A DNA stretch of 64,000 nt from Candidatus Poseidoniaceae archaeon (GCA_030747695.1 JASLKG010000002.1:1-64000), one strand, 5' to 3'; shown: positions 54,312-63,798, numbered from the stretch's first letter. Translations and numbers: made by a program. The notes: generated from the letters alone by a model not told the origin.

Positions 54312-55322
54312 TCACTTCCTTCCGCGGGAAGCTGTCATATCAACTCGACGCATTCCCTTTTTCTTTTGGGATTGTGTTCTTTTGGCACTCAAACCACCTC
54401 GATCTCCAGACATAGTTCCACCAAACGTCAAATTACCAGCGCTTAGCAAATGATCAACCATTGATTCAGCTACTTTAGAATCCTCAGCGCCTGTTTTCAT
54501 TTCTTTCATGACTGAAGCGTTGTGATCAGTAATCCAAGATTCTCTTTCCTCTCGGGCCATTTTGAGTTTGTCACGTGTTTCATTAACTTCTTTCATTAAT
54601 TCAACGATTTTCTGATGAACTTCATCTGCCTTTTCTTTACAACCTACAAATTCATTGTGGAAACGTTGTTGCTCTCCTTTTAAGAAATCTCGATGTGAGA
54701 ACAATTCCTTCATTTCTTTGGACATACCCTTGGCTTTTTCCAAGCACTCAATGAATTGTTTATGTGCTAAATCTGCTTCTGCCTTCAAAGTTGCAATTGC
54801 TTCGTCACGGTTAGATAAGTCGACCTTAATCATTTGAAGTTCTGCAATTTCTGGCTCTAATTCCTTCATTCGTCTACGCATGTTCTTAATCTTCTCAATG
54901 GTTTCTTTCTCCTTCTTTGGAGACATTCCACCACGAGTTTCATAGATTCGTTCCATTGTATCTACTTCACTAGATAGTTTATTGAATTCAAAAGTGGCGG
55001 ATTTCTTTGTATCCGCATCTCCTCTCTGAGACTTTGCTTGTCCAATCAAATCTCTGATTTGGGCTTGTATTGCATCCCTACGTTCTTTATGCAAATTTTG
55101 TTCAGCACGTACTGCCTTAACCTCTGCTAATGCAAAATCTACTTTCTCCCGATGTTCTTTGTACTGACTTTGTATAGAATTTCGTTGATCTGCAAATCTC
55201 TTTGCCTGTTCGTTATGGGCGCCACGCGCATCACGTAACTTACGAACTTTAGACTCCATCTGGTGTAAATGATCTCTCAAATCAACATCAGGGATTGTAT
55301 CCTCCCCCGAGCCTGCAGTCAT
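54312..55322 (-). CDS. COG1340-type archaeal coiled-coil protein
   Basis: A 336-residue, almost entirely coiled-coil protein (residues about 12-270) with a disordered Gly/Lys/Arg-rich C-terminus ('GGLSAKRTQSQKKKGMRR'). The conserved 'RNSIQSQYKEHREKVDFA', 'ERIYETRGGMSPKKEKETI' core matches the widespread but uncharacterised archaeal family COG1340. It has a proposed ribosome or RNA association in some archaea, which I cannot verify. Two other coiled-coil genes of the same style lie at 60068 and 63889. Confidence 0.85.
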   Translation of the reverse strand: MTAGSGEDTIPDVDLRDHLHQMESKVRKLRDARGAHNEQAKRFADQRNSIQSQYKEHREKVDFALAEVKAVRAEQNLHKERRDAIQAQIRDLIGQAKSQRGDADTKKSATFEFNKLSSEVDTMERIYETRGGMSPKKEKETIEKIKNMRRRMKELEPEIAELQMIKVDLSNRDEAIATLKAEADLAHKQFIECLEKAKGMSKEMKELFSHRDFLKGEQQRFHNEFVGCKEKADEVHQKIVELMKEVNETRDKLKMAREERESWITDHNASVMKEMKTGAEDSKVAESMVDHLLSAGNLTFGGTMSGDRGGLSAKRTQSQKKKGMRRVDMTASRGRK

Positions 55323-57546: not shown

Positions 57547-59988
57547 CTAATCCTTTCTTGCTTCAAAAATAGTCTCACAAGCAGGACATCTGGCATTAGC
57601 AGGCCTTCTATCATATGGAACCTTTAGTTTACGTGAACACTTGGGACAACCCAAGATGTCGTCTGATGAAGAAGACCACAATCCCTCTTCCACCTTTTCA
57701 TCGACCTCTGGTTCCTTTGTTTGTTCATTAGTTGGTTGTTGGTTTTCTACACCTTTTACATCGAAGCGTGTTTCACATTCAGGACAGCGTACTGCACCGG
57801 AATAAGTTGATGGGACTTTCAATCTCCTATCGCATGAAGGACATCCTACCTCCACTTTTTCATTGTCTTCCTTCGGTTGAGAAACGTTAGTTGGTTTGGC
57901 CTTTTTCTCTTTTTTAGGACCTGATTTTAATCTAATTGCTAAAACTAAGAAAATACCTAACGAAAGACCACCCAATATGCCACCCCAAGGTATGACAATT
58001 GAGTCTTTATTATCTGATATTTCTTCAGATAGTACACTTTTTCTTGCATCTACTTCATATGATTCAACAACCCATATGGCTGTTAATGAAACTAATTCAC
58101 CTTCAGGCCAAATTATAGATGTGCTAATAGTCTGAGTCTCAGTATCAAACGATGGTGTCTCTGAAAGTGACAGTTCAATTCCAGAAGGATTTGTGATGAT
58201 TAATGTTCCACTTGGTACTGTACCAGGCCCACTATTTGTTAGTAAGCAATGTATTGTAACAACATCATTTACTGAAGGCATTTGAGGCTGTACTGATTCA
58301 ATGCTTATTTGCGGAATTATAGAATTGTCAGGTATTATCATTGACTTAAATAATTGTGAATTAAGGCCACTAGTCCAATCATCAAATTCGATTGTAACAA
58401 ATATCTCTTCTCCATTTACATCACCTAAGGAAATACCTCCAGTTGTAATTCCTGGTTGTATCAATATTGACTGCTGGATTAGATTTGTATTTATTCCATC
58501 TAATGTTGATCCATATGTTAGTTCGACCATACGTGATTTTCCATCATCAAATTCTATATCCCATTCAACTTCGATACCCGTATCACTATATGCTAATGAT
58601 GTAAGATTAATTGCAATATTTTGAGCTGGCAAAACAGGGATTTGAATTAATCCAGAGAGATTCTCCTCAACTGCAGAATCCATACTCTGAATTGACCAAT
58701 TGACGTAATGTGTCCCTGGCGATTCAAACGTTAACTTGTGAGTTACCTCACCTGCTTTACCTGCATCTAATGTGATTATTGGGCCAATAGTACTATTGGT
58801 AGAAATATCTCCTAAAATACCTTCATATTCAAGGTGAAGGCTTGATGTCCCTTGGATATTACCTTCATTCCTCAAGAGCAAAGAGACTAGTATCTCATCT
58901 CCAACGTGCCAAGGACCCTGTAACAATGAAGGTGTAGAGCTCCCGGCGCTCATAAAAATACCAGAGTTCATAGAAATTGTATCACTTGCTGAATTATTTG
59001 TGATCGTTCTTGATCCATCATGGCTACAAATCAAAACTCCCGGCCTAGATTGTATGCCAACATTAACTATAGTAGAGGCATTAACCTGTATCGATACTGC
59101 TTCCCTTGAAATTTCTTCACCTTCAAATGTGCAAAACAATTCTCCATTGAATACAGCCATGCCATCATTTGAAGCACTAAGATTCCACACAGTGTTATTT
59201 CCAGGTGATGGTTCAACAATTTTATCCAAAGAGAGAGTTAATTCAGGGAGAGGAGGGGGATTTACTGAAAATGGCATTGTTCCAGAATTATCAGACGTGT
59301 CCGCATCATCATCACCATCTAATGATACTGAAATTGTATGTGATCCTTCACTTAATGCCATAGTTAAAAAGGACACTATAGATGTCGAATCACCTAATAC
59401 ACTAACGTTTTGTGATGTTAAAGAGGTCCCGTCAATTGACAAATTAACAGAACCTGTCCAATTTACATCTCCATCATTAACCACAGGCACATCTATCCTA
59501 GCGTGATCGCCATCATTTACGGTCAAATTTCCAGTTTCATTTCCACTGGAATCTACTCCTGTGATTGTCGGTTGGGCAATCGAAATATCTAGAGGCCTCA
59601 AACGATGAACTATAGTATACCATTCTACATACTGATTTGCACCAGGAGTTCCTACATCTCCACTTAACAAGACACTTAAATTTGAATAACCAAGTGGTGC
59701 ATCACCTAATGTCGTTTCAACGAAAACATTCACTCCATCTTCAACTAATGTATTTCCATTGTCAGAATCTATTACTACTCCTTCCATATTTGACAAAGTA
59801 ATTGTCCAATTAACTGATGAGGAAGTCGCACCACCTACTCCGACCAATGTCAGATTAACTGAAACTGGACCAGCTCCTATTACACCACTTCCATTAATGG
59901 AAACTGAATCGATTACACCCCCCGTTGCAGATGCTGGTGGTACTGACGCTAATGCAATCAACATCACCAACAAAATGGCCCGGCGCAT
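57547..59988 (-). CDS. Surface protein with CARDB-like repeats, membrane anchor and cytoplasmic twin zinc ribbon
   Basis: About 813 residues from ATG 59988, which gives a good signal peptide (MRRAILLVMLIALASVPPASA); the frame opens 12 codons earlier at a GTG inside a palindrome. The outside part has several CARDB/Ig-like domains ('VNDGDVNWTGSVNLSIDG', 'LLRNEGNIQGTSSLHLEYEG'). One transmembrane helix (about 667-686) is followed by a Lys-rich stop and a 120-residue cytoplasmic tail with two zinc ribbons ('CPSCDRRLKVP...VRCPECETRF' and 'CPKCSRKLKVP...ARCPACETIF'). This architecture could pass a surface signal inward. It is divergent from the coiled-coil/TUT-like operon. Confidence 0.87.
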   Translation of the reverse strand: MRRAILLVMLIALASVPPASATGGVIDSVSINGSGVIGAGPVSVNLTLVGVGGATSSSVNWTITLSNMEGVVIDSDNGNTLVEDGVNVFVETTLGDAPLGYSNLSVLLSGDVGTPGANQYVEWYTIVHRLRPLDISIAQPTITGVDSSGNETGNLTVNDGDHARIDVPVVNDGDVNWTGSVNLSIDGTSLTSQNVSVLGDSTSIVSFLTMALSEGSHTISVSLDGDDDADTSDNSGTMPFSVNPPPLPELTLSLDKIVEPSPGNNTVWNLSASNDGMAVFNGELFCTFEGEEISREAVSIQVNASTIVNVGIQSRPGVLICSHDGSRTITNNSASDTISMNSGIFMSAGSSTPSLLQGPWHVGDEILVSLLLRNEGNIQGTSSLHLEYEGILGDISTNSTIGPIITLDAGKAGEVTHKLTFESPGTHYVNWSIQSMDSAVEENLSGLIQIPVLPAQNIAINLTSLAYSDTGIEVEWDIEFDDGKSRMVELTYGSTLDGINTNLIQQSILIQPGITTGGISLGDVNGEEIFVTIEFDDWTSGLNSQLFKSMIIPDNSIIPQISIESVQPQMPSVNDVVTIHCLLTNSGPGTVPSGTLIITNPSGIELSLSETPSFDTETQTISTSIIWPEGELVSLTAIWVVESYEVDARKSVLSEEISDNKDSIVIPWGGILGGLSLGIFLVLAIRLKSGPKKEKKAKPTNVSQPKEDNEKVEVGCPSCDRRLKVPSTYSGAVRCPECETRFDVKGVENQQPTNEQTKEPEVDEKVEEGLWSSSSDDILGCPKCSRKLKVPYDRRPANARCPACETIFEARKD

Positions 59989-60022
59989 GTAACTCCGGCG
60001 ACGCAGGGGGTTTTTCACCTTC

Positions 60023-60042
60023 ACCCACCCTTAAGGGTGGGT
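60023..60042. promoter_or_regulatory. Perfect 20-bp palindrome between the surface protein and the coiled-coil/TUT-like operon
   Basis: ACCCACCCTTAAGGGTGGGT is its own reverse complement. It lies 26 bases upstream of the GTG/ATG start of the coiled-coil gene and 35 bases from the divergent ATG at 59988. It is a candidate operator shared by both units, or a bidirectional hairpin. Confidence 0.6.
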
Positions 60043-60067: not shown

Positions 60068-60901
60068 GTGGCCGCAACGATTCAGATGAATGCAGACGAC
60101 CTGCTGGCGGTAACTCCTAAACTACTCGCGCAAGCAATATTGCATCGCAGAGAGCGGTTAGCAGACCTGATTCCAGATGAATTAGATGCTCGGAAAAATG
60201 AGCAGCATGAGGCCGAACCATTGGCGAAATCCGCTCGCGAAGAAAGAGATAATATCAATTCCAAGGTTGCAAGCTTAAAAAATGAGAGAAATACATCACA
60301 GAAAAAGGCAGGCGACCTATTTGAAAAGGCAAACAATATACGTGAACAAATTTTTGCAGAAGGAGGAATAAAGACTCCTGATCCAAAATGGGCGCAAGAA
60401 AAATTGGCAAACAAATTGAAAGAAATTGAGAACCAATTGGAAACTAGCGCTGGCACACACAAAACGGAAGAGAGATTCATCAATGAAATGAAAGCACTGA
60501 TTAAGGAACATGAAGAATGGGTCGAAGAAAGAAGTTCCTCGCAACCACTTGTTAAGGAGATGCGTGATGCCCAAAAAAAGGCTCGGAAATTAATTGATTC
60601 AGCCCAAAAAGCACATGCTGCTATGGTTGAATTAGCAGAGGCAAATGCAACACGGCATGATGAATTTGTAAAATGGGAAGAAGTCAGAAGACGTTCTACG
60701 TCTCGTGCACAAAAACTAGAATCTGCACAGAAGAGTAGTCAATTAGCACTTGAATTCTGGAAAGAAAGAATAGTCGCAGATAATTTTGAAGATCTTCTCA
60801 CAGATTCTACAAGGGTCTCTGATGGCGGTATGTCCAGCAAGGCAGTGGCAAAGGCGAAGCGGCTTGAAAGAGACTTAAAAAACGGAGGTGAAGAAGAATG
60901 A
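60068..60901 (+). CDS. Coiled-coil protein (COG1340-like), coupled to TUT-like gene
   Basis: A 277-residue protein that is coiled coil through residues about 40-235, basic and mixed in charge. It begins MAATIQMNADDLLA at GTG 60068; ATG 60086 is an alternative. Phrases such as 'REERDNINSKVASLKNER', 'EGGIKTPDPKWAQEKLANKL' and 'MRDAQKKARKLIDSAQKA' repeat the style of the COG1340 gene at 54312. It overlaps the TUT-like nucleotidyltransferase by 4 bases (ATGA), so the two are made together and may form a complex through their coiled coils. Confidence 0.8.
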   Translation: MAATIQMNADDLLAVTPKLLAQAILHRRERLADLIPDELDARKNEQHEAEPLAKSAREERDNINSKVASLKNERNTSQKKAGDLFEKANNIREQIFAEGGIKTPDPKWAQEKLANKLKEIENQLETSAGTHKTEERFINEMKALIKEHEEWVEERSSSQPLVKEMRDAQKKARKLIDSAQKAHAAMVELAEANATRHDEFVKWEEVRRRSTSRAQKLESAQKSSQLALEFWKERIVADNFEDLLTDSTRVSDGGMSSKAVAKAKRLERDLKNGGEEE

Positions 60902-62973
60902 AGGATAACTGTGAAATCACAGGATTAAGTCCTGAAGATGCATCTCACTGGTCTGATTTTCATGCAATAATTACCGGCAAAAGTGATATTTCTAAACCAG
61001 AAAAGGGATCTTTAGATTCATATGAAAAGGCATTGAGTGCAACATTTTCTAATAACAAAACACACAAAGGTGATCAACGTAAAACAGAAAGTCTAGTTAC
61101 TCACTTGGAGAAATCGATATTGAGTAAATTCAAAGATTCCAAATTAATCCCATTTGGTTCTGTGAAAACGGGGTTATCTTTGAAGGGGGGGGATCTTGAT
61201 TTATGTTTCCAACAAAATAATGCAGACGCAAAAAAAGTCATTAAGCGAATAAGTGGTATGATGAGGGGGCAAGGTATGGAAAAGGTACAAGCCTTAACGC
61301 GTGCCAAAGTTCCCATCATAAAATTCATTGATCCAAGAAGTGGGATACACGTTGATATTTCTATAAACAATAGCCTTGCACTATACAATACAAAGTTGTT
61401 GGAAACATATGCTGAGATTGATGAAAGGGTCAAAAGGGTTGCATTATGTGTGAAACATTGGGCACTACATAGAAACATTTGTGATCCATTATCTGGTACA
61501 CTTTCCTCATATGCTTGGTCAAATTTGGTGATAGCACACCTCCAATTGGAAGGTTTACTACCTAATTTGCAAGAATCTGAAGACAGAACTATTGCGAAAG
61601 TTGACGGCAGAGAATATGATTTGACAATAAATACTGAGGCTATTGTAAAAGAAATCGAAACTTCTGCACATGAACTGTTAGTATGGTTCTTCTATCGATT
61701 CGCAAAATGGGATTGGGAAAATGACGTTGTGTCAATACGTAATAATGGGAAAATTAGTCGAGACGAGAAGGGTTGGAATAATGAAAACCCAACGGCATTA
61801 GAAGCTAATAATTCAGATTCAAAACTTAGGATGGGTTTACACCATCTCCCAATTGAAGATCCTTTTGACCTCGAACATGATTTATGTCGTGTTGTGAGGG
61901 CTGAAGGTGAATTATCAATCAAGAATGAATTAATTAGGGCAGTAAGAATGTTCAATGAAGGAGCATCATGGGAATCAATATGCGATACAGTTTCGCCGGA
62001 AAGGTTGGAACATTTAGAGCCTGCAGATCTATTTCATGACTTACGCACTCAGGACATGGAAAGTATTCGAAAAAATCGTGAAGAAATTTCTAAGGAGTTA
62101 AAGTCAAATGAAGAATTGATTGTTGCTTTGGAAGAAGAGAAACAATCATGCATCAAAATGTCGAAAGCAATGCGTGGAGTAATTGATGAAACAAGTGGAC
62201 TGCGAAAAGAGCACAAAGCTGTAGTTGTTGAACTCAAAAAACGTAACGCAATGATTGATCAGGCAAAAAACAAGCGGGATGAAATCAATTCAAACATCAT
62301 ATTACCTCTGCATATGATTGAAGAAGAATTAGCAAAGGTTTACTCGAGATTAACTGAAGAAATAGATCTACATAGAGTTCCTTCACTCGAAAAAGAAAAA
62401 TTACAATTTTCCTGGTTTATGGAACTGCAATCTATGCATTCTAAAGCCAATGAGGCCTCAGAATTACACAAAGAATTTATTAAATTAGTAAAGCAACAAA
62501 AGGAAGATATTACTAAATTAAAAATATTTGAAAATAAGCATGATGATACCACTAAAAAACTACTGGATTCTGAACCACTATTAAAAGATAAAAATGTGTC
62601 ACATAATGAAGTTAAATCGCACGATAAGCAGATTCAGAATGTACAAAAAATTCTGCGTAAAAAACGTGGTCAAATACATAAGTTGCGCCGGGAATTAGGG
62701 CGCTTGGATGCCTGGATTAGAAAACAGACGCAACCAAGATCAGGATCTGGAAAGAGATATGACAAAAGAAAGGGTGGCAGAAAAAATAAACCTGTAGACC
62801 ACAATATGCCAATTACACTTGGTGATATATCAGGACTATTAAGTGGAGAAAAAACACAATCTATTTCTTCGAAAAAAGAAAAACGGTCTTCGTCCAAAAA
62901 AGCTGGGATGAAAAAACTTAGCAACTTCGGCGCACATCGTGGTAAACGAAGTTCTTACCAGAAAAAAGACTAA
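60898..62973 (+). CDS. Cid1/TUT-like terminal nucleotidyltransferase fused to a coiled coil
   Basis: A 691-residue protein. Residues 60-330 are a eukaryotic-type non-canonical poly(A)/poly(U) polymerase. The catalytic loop is 'FGSVKTGLSLKGGDLDLCF' with Gly87-Ser88 and Asp99/Asp101; the third Asp153 is in 'GIHVDISINNSLA'. 'VALCVKHWALHR' and 'DPLSGTLSSYAWSNLVIAHL' are the PAP-associated domain, and 'IEDPFDLEHDLCRVV' (319-333) matches TUT4/TUT7 'IEDPFD.NHN.G', with His327 at the position linked to UTP selectivity in Cid1. Residues 385-620 are coiled coil and 640-691 a basic tail. By homology it adds nucleotides, perhaps U, to RNA 3' ends. Such enzymes are not part of the known archaeal RNA-decay set. 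Confidence 0.88.
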   Translation: MKDNCEITGLSPEDASHWSDFHAIITGKSDISKPEKGSLDSYEKALSATFSNNKTHKGDQRKTESLVTHLEKSILSKFKDSKLIPFGSVKTGLSLKGGDLDLCFQQNNADAKKVIKRISGMMRGQGMEKVQALTRAKVPIIKFIDPRSGIHVDISINNSLALYNTKLLETYAEIDERVKRVALCVKHWALHRNICDPLSGTLSSYAWSNLVIAHLQLEGLLPNLQESEDRTIAKVDGREYDLTINTEAIVKEIETSAHELLVWFFYRFAKWDWENDVVSIRNNGKISRDEKGWNNENPTALEANNSDSKLRMGLHHLPIEDPFDLEHDLCRVVRAEGELSIKNELIRAVRMFNEGASWESICDTVSPERLEHLEPADLFHDLRTQDMESIRKNREEISKELKSNEELIVALEEEKQSCIKMSKAMRGVIDETSGLRKEHKAVVVELKKRNAMIDQAKNKRDEINSNIILPLHMIEEELAKVYSRLTEEIDLHRVPSLEKEKLQFSWFMELQSMHSKANEASELHKEFIKLVKQQKEDITKLKIFENKHDDTTKKLLDSEPLLKDKNVSHNEVKSHDKQIQNVQKILRKKRGQIHKLRRELGRLDAWIRKQTQPRSGSGKRYDKRKGGRKNKPVDHNMPITLGDISGLLSGEKTQSISSKKEKRSSSKKAGMKKLSNFGAHRGKRSSYQKKD

Positions 62974-62995
62974 CCTAAATTGCACACTGATTGAT

Positions 62996-63454
62996 ATGGC
63001 AGCAAGTTGGATCTTAGGACCTAGCCCCAAACAGTTAGATTCGGAGATGGTCGAAGTAATCAGGCAACTATTCCTTGACCAGACTGGAGAAATATATATT
63101 CCAGAAAGTGTGAAAACTCTACCCATTCCTGAATGGTCAGGAAATTTGTTACTACTTGACGAAAACAAAATGATAAGAGGCGTCATGTGGGCAAAACCAT
63201 TCAAAGAAGATACAGTTAGAGTTGTTGCTTTTGCCATTGATTCAGACTATCAAGGAATTGGGCTTGGAAACCAAGCATGGAATCTCTTAGTTGATGCTGC
63301 AAAACTTGAAGGTAGAAATTTCATACAATTAGAAGTAAGGGGAGACAACAATTTTGCAATTGAATTCTACAAAAAGAGAGGTTTGAATATTGTGCAAGAC
63401 CTTGTTGGATACTATTCAAGCGGGATTGGATACATGATGCGTGGACAAATATAA
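62996..63454 (+). CDS. GNAT-family N-acetyltransferase (RimI-like)
   Basis: About 152 residues from ATG 62996; an upstream GTG overlaps the TUT-like gene. The acetyl-CoA motif A is 'AIDSDYQGIGLGNQAWNLL' (Q/R-x-x-G-x-G/A) and motif B 'LEVRGDNNFAIEFYKKRG', as in RimI-type protein acetyltransferases. The substrate is unknown. It sits 22 bases after the TUT-like gene and is probably in the same transcript. Confidence 0.88.
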   Translation: MAASWILGPSPKQLDSEMVEVIRQLFLDQTGEIYIPESVKTLPIPEWSGNLLLLDENKMIRGVMWAKPFKEDTVRVVAFAIDSDYQGIGLGNQAWNLLVDAAKLEGRNFIQLEVRGDNNFAIEFYKKRGLNIVQDLVGYYSSGIGYMMRGQI

Positions 63455-63492: not shown

Positions 63493-63798
63493 GTGCGGAG
63501 TAGTGTAATCAGAGATTTAGCAGCCGATGATGCAATAGTTTCTGCTGCTTTGCTATCGCAAGATGGTTTTGTGATAGAAAATCACGGACCTGTTTTTGAC
63601 TTTAGTTCCCTAGTTGAAATACTAGAAATTAATAATGGAAACAAATTAATAACAATTGTAGGTGAAAAAAACACTGTTATAGCAGGTAGGATTGATTGTG
63701 GTGATGTTGTGTGCATTATTTGTGAATCCGGTGGAAATCTTGGAAAAATGAGGCTAATGATTGATGAAGCTATTAACTCAATTACGGAACTATCATGA
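63493..63798 (+). CDS. Roadblock/LC7-domain protein
   Basis: A 101-residue single-domain roadblock protein. 'LAADDAIVSAALLSQDGFVI' and 'GNKLITIVGEKNTVIAGR' give the strand-helix pattern of the family. These proteins often regulate Ras-like small GTPases or bind motor and signalling complexes. The start is GTG 63493; no ATG is in frame upstream. No GTPase gene is in the visible window, so the partner is elsewhere. Confidence 0.8.
   Translation: MRSSVIRDLAADDAIVSAALLSQDGFVIENHGPVFDFSSLVEILEINNGNKLITIVGEKNTVIAGRIDCGDVVCIICESGGNLGKMRLMIDEAINSITELS

Follow-up and report, generated by a model that had tools for sequence, protein, structure and literature searches.

A complete nucleotidyltransferase of the Cid1/TUT type – palm and PAP-associated domain – joined to a helical hairpin is encoded in the genome of a Poseidoniaceae archaeon (Table 1). 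The gene, here termed NTase-CC2, lies within the window analysed (64,000 nucleotides, G000:C2:1-64000) and is present as a single copy in its genome, an assembly of 1.79 Mb in 11 contigs (86.9% complete, 0.01% contamination). Family, fold, an intact and selected active site, the fusion, a co-translation signal and the distribution of the gene were all computed here.

Table 1. Features of NTase-CC2 and its locus. Positions are those of the window; conservation refers to the 90 catalytic homologues described in the text, and Cid1 numbering was counted along the aligned sequence.
Feature	Position	Strand	Remarks
CC1, partner coiled-coil protein, 277 aa	60068..60901	+	may in fact start at ATG 60086
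ATGA overlap of CC1 stop and NTase-CC2 start	60898..60901	+	translational coupling signal
Cid1/TUT-type nucleotidyltransferase fused to coiled coil (NTase-CC2), 691 aa	60898..62973	+	ATG 60898, stop 62973
Catalytic palm domain of Pol-beta type, aa 45-172	61030..61413	+	Pfam MTPAP-like_central, 4.5e-31 on genome
Gly87-Ser88 (Cid1 Gly89-Ser90)	61156..61161	+	90/90
Asp99-x-Asp101, metal-binding pair (Cid1 Asp101/Asp103)	61192..61200	+	Asp99 90/90, Asp101 89/90 (one X)
Asp153, third catalytic Asp (Cid1 Asp160)	61354..61356	+	90/90
Asn164-Thr165 (Cid1 Asn171-Thr172)	61387..61392	+	Asn 90/90; Thr 78, Ser 12
Lys186 (Cid1 Lys193)	61453..61455	+	90/90
GTLSSYA with Ser204-Tyr205 (Cid1 Ser211-Tyr212)	61495..61515	+	Ser 90/90, Tyr 89/90 (one X)
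PAP-associated domain, aa 259-327	61672..61878	+	PF03828, 41 bits against a cut-off of 22.6
Nucleotide recognition motif Asp321...His327 (Cid1 Asp330...His336)	61858..61878	+	Asp 90/90
Coiled-coil hairpin, aa 376-611, pI 9.2	62023..62730	+	AF2; stand-alone homologues
DLFxDLR motif, fusion joint	62026..62046	+	first block in common with stand-alone CC2 proteins
Low-confidence basic tail with short conserved LSxxDLxxLL helix motif	62731..62970	+	80 aa, 23 Lys/Arg against 6 Asp/Glu
GNAT acetyltransferase, conserved neighbour	62939..63454	+	likely start 62996
Small conserved ORF	63493..63798	+	roadblock/LC7-like by eye

A sequence-only reading had assigned the protein to the Cid1/TUT family and proposed a comparison with Cid1, TUT4/7, Trf4 and GLD2. 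The assignment is borne out by Pfam, by sequence searches of the PDB, by an AF2 model and by Foldseek. Both Pfam matches of the protein, to MTPAP-like_central (E 7.6e-30) and PAP_assoc (E 2.3e-10), exceed the curated cut-offs, and in a set of 40 aligned proteins PF03828 was matched in 30, a number equal to that of the fusions in the set that lie outside genus g11. NCBIfam gave no match for the protein, nor did Pfam match it to the PolyA_pol head domain (PF01743) of class II CCA enzymes and bacterial poly(A) polymerase I. Searched by sequence, the PDB returned URT1 (2.4e-41), Cid1 (2e-36), TUT4 (3.7e-36) and TUT7 (2e-32), with weaker matches to CutA (1.5e-30), GLD2 (6e-26) and Trf4 (1e-11). A family profile built from eight homologues gave TUT4 1.8e-85, URT1 1.3e-70, CutA 1.2e-59, Cid1 7.7e-58 and GLD2 1.6e-50; TUT4/7, URT1, CutA and Cid1 thus rank highest, above GLD2, TUT1 and Trf4.

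The AF2 model, which rests on a 40-row alignment, has a mean pLDDT of 83.6, the nucleotidyltransferase reaching about 92 and its blocks mostly 88-97. Its best Foldseek match is Cid1 (E 3.8e-20, TM 0.85 on the target, with a range over Cid1 of 0.80-0.88), and the best 50 matches are all Cid1, URT1, CutA, TUT7 or TUT1. Enzymes of the OAS, cGAS and CD-NTase kinds are absent among sequence matches to 1e-5 and among those best 50 fold matches; the result that would have overturned the assignment – a best match to a CCA, KNTase, CD-NTase or OAS enzyme – did not occur. In the model D153 falls within strand 151-156, and D99 and D101 are in or next to strand 100-106. That the three catalytic Asp cluster in space is predicted from the fold match, without coordinates.

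The condition of the active site was assessed across 95 distinct full-length fusions from Poseidoniales genomes, of which 90 are catalytic and the other five are the g11 proteins. Every residue named from the sequence alone proved correctly placed: Gly87-Ser88, Asp99, Asp101, Asp153, NN 157-158, NT 164-165, GTLSSYA 200-206, IEDPFDLEHDLCRVV and His327. The equivalent of Cid1 N165 is also kept in the 90 catalytic homologues. Cid1 Lys197, which we take to be a triphosphate contact, has no conserved equivalent in the archaeal proteins. Pairwise omega for the nucleotidyltransferase (0.025-0.135, over those close pairs that allowed its calculation) is similar to that of the coil, and mean identity is 47% for the former against 39% for the latter; the catalytic family is under purifying selection.

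His327 had been taken to occupy the position of the His tied to UTP choice in Cid1 and TUT enzymes. It does align with Cid1 His336, and this position is His in 80 of the 90 catalytic homologues, Arg in 7 and Val, Leu or Ile in 3. In Cid1, H336 selects UTP, and H336A or H336N produces a poly(A) polymerase (PMC4357723); in CutA the same position is Arg557, with R557H raising U and R557A raising A incorporation (PMC7498324). The archaeal Arg has appeared in place of the uracil-reading His in two lineages, one a subset of genus g2 (L131, L132, L134, L137-L139), the other in g8 (L038), as in fungal CutA, and altered base choice is predicted for these homologues. With ten of 90 homologues lacking His, the label 'uridylyl' cannot safely be applied to every member.

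Genus g11 presents a distinct outcome. Its five proteins (L039, L040, L140-L142) have lost the Ser, all three Asp, both Asn and the Lys together and are barely detected by Pfam. AF2 nonetheless returns the fold (pLDDT 82, from an alignment that includes active homologues), which Foldseek still matches to Cid1 (5e-15), and omega is 0.095-0.113. To judge from these residues, g11 carries a putative pseudo-nucleotidyltransferase, catalytically dead, under purifying selection and still fused to the coil. The dead N-terminal nucleotidyltransferase copy of TUT4/7 is comparable.

The fusion to a coiled coil, also part of the sequence-only reading, is equally well supported: AF2 places helices at 387-466, 497-558 and 569-611, with pLDDT mostly 75-93. 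Pfam finds only weak, scattered coiled-coil matches there. At the joint F379, D381 and L382 are invariant across the 40 aligned proteins, and a stand-alone CC2 coil without nucleotidyltransferase, starting with the same DLFxDL motif, occurs in the sister family and in Poseidoniaceae genera g6, g9 and g10. The coil is the older partner, existing alone in related genera. (The class is taken as Poseidoniia, and we infer that the two families are Poseidoniaceae, MGIIa, and Thalassarchaeaceae, MGIIb.)

In every locus that was read completely, CC1 precedes CC2, and 94 of 116 loci show an overlap of exactly 4 nt between the two genes. Since this holds with or without the nucleotidyltransferase, the pair is likely to be translationally coupled, and we infer that the two proteins likely bind each other as a complex. 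The surrounding order – MEM, DtxR and CARDB/Zn-ribbon genes on the minus strand, then CC1, CC2 (with or without the nucleotidyltransferase) and GNAT – is largely kept in both families. The gene at 57547-60024 (minus strand), which in the loci read is transcribed divergently from CC1, encodes CARDB-type repeats, what looks like a TM segment and, at the C terminus, two zinc-ribbon-like CxxC pairs. Pfam and NCBIfam gave no match for the small ORF downstream of GNAT. Three further coiled-coil proteins lie near the locus (window 54312-55322 and 60068-60901, and L166:4857-5768, which starts at window 63856). The first weakly resembles DUF7121, a likeness that for the neighbours CC1 and CC3 is below the Pfam cut-off; the last carries, close to its C terminus, an LSxxEL-type motif that it has in common with the tail of CC2.

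The distribution of the enzyme is narrow. Among 390 Thermoplasmatota genomes from 155 genera (other phyla were outside the scan) the family profile matched in only seven genera, all Poseidoniaceae, and PAP_assoc exceeded its cut-off in none of 14 control genomes, our only view beyond Thermoplasmatota. Carriage by phages or plasmids was considered and rejected: neither gave a match, and a profile scan of IMG/VR found no relatives. A tree of four neighbouring genes (1,700 columns) unites all genera with active fusions in a single clade (100/100); g9 is basal, and just outside lie g11 and g6 plus g10. The nucleotidyltransferase was thus most simply gained once, by addition to an existing coil in the ancestor of the active genera and g11. 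Genera g6 and g10 either lost it or branched before its gain, the order being unresolved. Fourteen g3 genomes have the coil without the nucleotidyltransferase while sister g3 genomes retain the fusion, which points to secondary loss; the enzyme is dispensable in part of this genus.

Where the enzyme came from is less clear. Trees were built with nine eukaryotic sequences, the PDB subject sequences from the alignments; GLD2 and Trf4 fragments had been used for searching alone. In these trees the archaeal proteins group in a single clade (97/99) whose placement among URT1, Cid1, CutA, TUT4/7 and GLD2, with Trf4 as outgroup, is unresolved. By the AU test, neither a separate eukaryotic core (p 0.41) nor a sister relationship to CutA, GLD2 or TUT4/7 (p 0.32-0.40) was rejected; URT1 was weakest (p 0.10). 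Transfer from a eukaryote is likely, given the narrow archaeal distribution and the resemblance to eukaryotic TUTs, although it is not shown and the donor is unresolved.

Exosome-type RNase PH genes (a Rrp41/42-type pair) are present in the window's genome. A third RNase PH-family protein beside them (G000:C3:153437-153826) is common across Poseidoniales. An RNase R-like gene occurs in g2, g3, g4, g5, g8 and some g1, that is in six of 11 Poseidoniaceae genera, all with active enzyme, and scores E 1.2e-90 against TIGR02063, below that model's cut-off; none was found among the sister-family genomes listed. This distribution suits an axis of U-tails and RNase R. It carries limited weight: the genera with both genes form one clade and thus represent one evolutionary coincidence, not many, and part of g3 has lost the TUT and kept the RNase R-like gene. 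The RNase R-like gene was not detected in the window's own genome or in most of its genus, so the link cannot be general, and for that genome RNase R as an obligatory partner is rejected. These RNB exoribonucleases (L173-L176; G002:C1:405328 and others) have an intact DAKDFDDA motif and are patchy, found mostly where the TUT is active; the G548 copy differs strongly (E 2.8e-112) and is possibly of foreign origin.

A role in CCA addition was also considered. None of 25 Poseidoniales genomes has the archaeal class I CCA enzyme. Another enzyme fills the tRNA CCA role, a class II PolyA_pol protein that 21 of the 25 carry and that a separate gene (G000:C1:84478) encodes in the window's genome; it looks like a replacement for the otherwise conserved class I enzyme. 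With that protein present instead of class I, and with the sister family lacking the nucleotidyltransferase, a CCA-adding role for NTase-CC2 is rejected. The window's two tRNAs have no clear encoded CCA end.

What, then, does NTase-CC2 do? We think it probable that it is a template-independent RNA 3′-terminal nucleotidyltransferase of the Cid1/TUT4-7/URT1 kind, working as follows. The N-terminal two-domain module would bind NTP and Mg2+ via Gly87-Ser88 and Asp99/Asp101/Asp153; the base would stack on Tyr205, and uracil would be read by His327, itself supported by Asp321. UMP – or more AMP or CMP where the His is replaced – would be transferred to RNA 3′ ends, giving short non-templated tails. 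The C-terminal coil, co-translated with CC1, would hold the enzyme in an old Poseidoniales complex, so that tailing would be aimed at RNA handled by that complex. The basic tail of the complex would probably contact RNA or ribosomes, an inference that rests on charge and helical shape only. The added tail would most likely mark RNA for 3′-5′ decay by the exosome and, in many genera, by the RNase R-like enzyme. Tailing, the preference for U, the RNA target, the fate of the tail, delivery by the coil complex and the CC1-CC2 complex are all inferred, with no biochemical or RNA-end data. Points against the proposal are the failure to keep Cid1 Lys197, the missing RNase R-like gene in the window's genome and the dispensability of the nucleotidyltransferase in part of g3.

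The most serious rival is that the protein is mainly a non-canonical poly(A) polymerase of GLD2 or Trf4 type, A-tailing RNA for an archaeal exosome whose cap prefers A-rich RNA. Archaeal exosomes do make and prefer A-rich tails (PMC4227792), the exosome core genes are present, and the three homologues with Val, Leu or Ile call to mind the Cid1 H336A/N poly(A) polymerase (PMC4357723). Yet the uracil-reading His is found in 80 of 90 homologues alongside an invariant Asp321 partner, and GLD2 and Trf4 score far under TUT4/7, URT1 and Cid1. An enzyme of GLD2 type should lack His at the UTP-reading position and lie closest to GLD2; His327 is present, and GLD2 (1.6e-50) falls short of TUT4 (1.8e-85). 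We consider this rival doubtful. Mixed or C-containing tags, as made by CutA, with specificity differing by species according to the His, Arg or aliphatic residue, seem less probable still. Arg stands at the CutA Arg557 position in seven homologues from two lineages and CutA follows just after Cid1 and URT1 in the Foldseek ranking, but the window protein has His, and a single substitution in CutA changed specificity only partly (PMC7498324).

It is hard to credit that the target is not RNA, or that the protein is mainly a nucleotide-binding regulator of the coiled-coil complex with RNA catalysis secondary. The selected dead domain of g11 and the lineages that dispense with the nucleotidyltransferase would fit such a role; the catalytic residues, unneeded for binding alone, are nevertheless invariant over 90 proteins outside g11, and RNA is what the closest relatives act upon. 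Eukaryotic contamination or chimeric assembly can be dismissed with near certainty, even though the closest solved relatives are all eukaryotic: the archaeal proteins constitute the single clade noted above, with ~40% identity between genera, and synteny, operon position and fusion recur in many independent genomes, including the one-contig 2.06 Mb genome G002.

Against this background the preferred reading, a TUT-like RNA tailing enzyme, can be set beside known systems. S. pombe Cid1, a poly(U) polymerase, has the same two-domain core, GS and three Asp, and its Asn171, Lys193, Ser211-Tyr212, Asp330 and His336 all have equivalents in NTase-CC2. The two proteins are 28% identical, and NTase-CC2 differs in its archaeal host, the absence of Lys197, the C-terminal coil and basic tail, and the coupling to CC1. 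Arabidopsis URT1 and human TUT4/TUT7, the best sequence and profile matches, likewise have His in the recognition motif; NTase-CC2 lacks their zinc knuckles and Lin28 module and has a single nucleotidyltransferase domain with an archaeal coil fused to it. CutA, the fungal CUCU-tagging enzyme, is similar in fold and pocket, and its Arg557 is matched in the seven Arg-bearing archaeal homologues; the window protein is not fused to CutA's domains. Tailing by the archaeal exosome (Rrp41/42 in reverse) is the described route in exosome-bearing archaea, the window's genome among those with such genes, but it is the work of an unrelated enzyme, phosphorolysis run backwards to give A-rich mixed tails, whereas NTase-CC2 should use NTPs and prefer U. 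A search of open-licence papers found no description of an archaeal TUTase or Cid1, or of a counterpart in Poseidoniales or Marine Group II; PMC6336850, whose Marine Group II genome set includes Guaymas genomes, and PMC6461757 are silent. NTase-CC2 is an architectural and phylogenetic novelty within a known kind of enzyme, undescribed in the literature searched.

RNA uridylation is the leading, though inferred, reading for this widespread family of marine archaea, which are uncultured. Whether Poseidoniaceae-type archaea practise it as a genuine system is, in our estimation, evenly balanced: the TUTase would have been acquired a single time, probably from a eukaryotic source, and, joined to the coil, would U-tag defined RNAs for decay by exosome or RNase R, and its His, Arg and aliphatic variants would diversify the tails. 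If true, this uridylation system would be the first known in archaea; in the literature consulted terminal uridylation is a eukaryotic RNA mark, and archaeal tailing is put down to the exosome working in reverse. Given this TUTase, a single recombinant protein and metatranscriptomes that already exist would allow a direct test of archaeal RNA uridylation. The natural series of His, Arg, aliphatic, dead and absent states offers a route to the evolution of base choice and to the wiring of a transferred enzyme into a host complex. An intact, strongly selected TUTase, attached to a lineage-specific coil and retaining the residue that reads uracil in the majority of ~90 species of archaea abundant in the surface ocean, suggests that these organisms tag RNA in a manner unreported for archaea.
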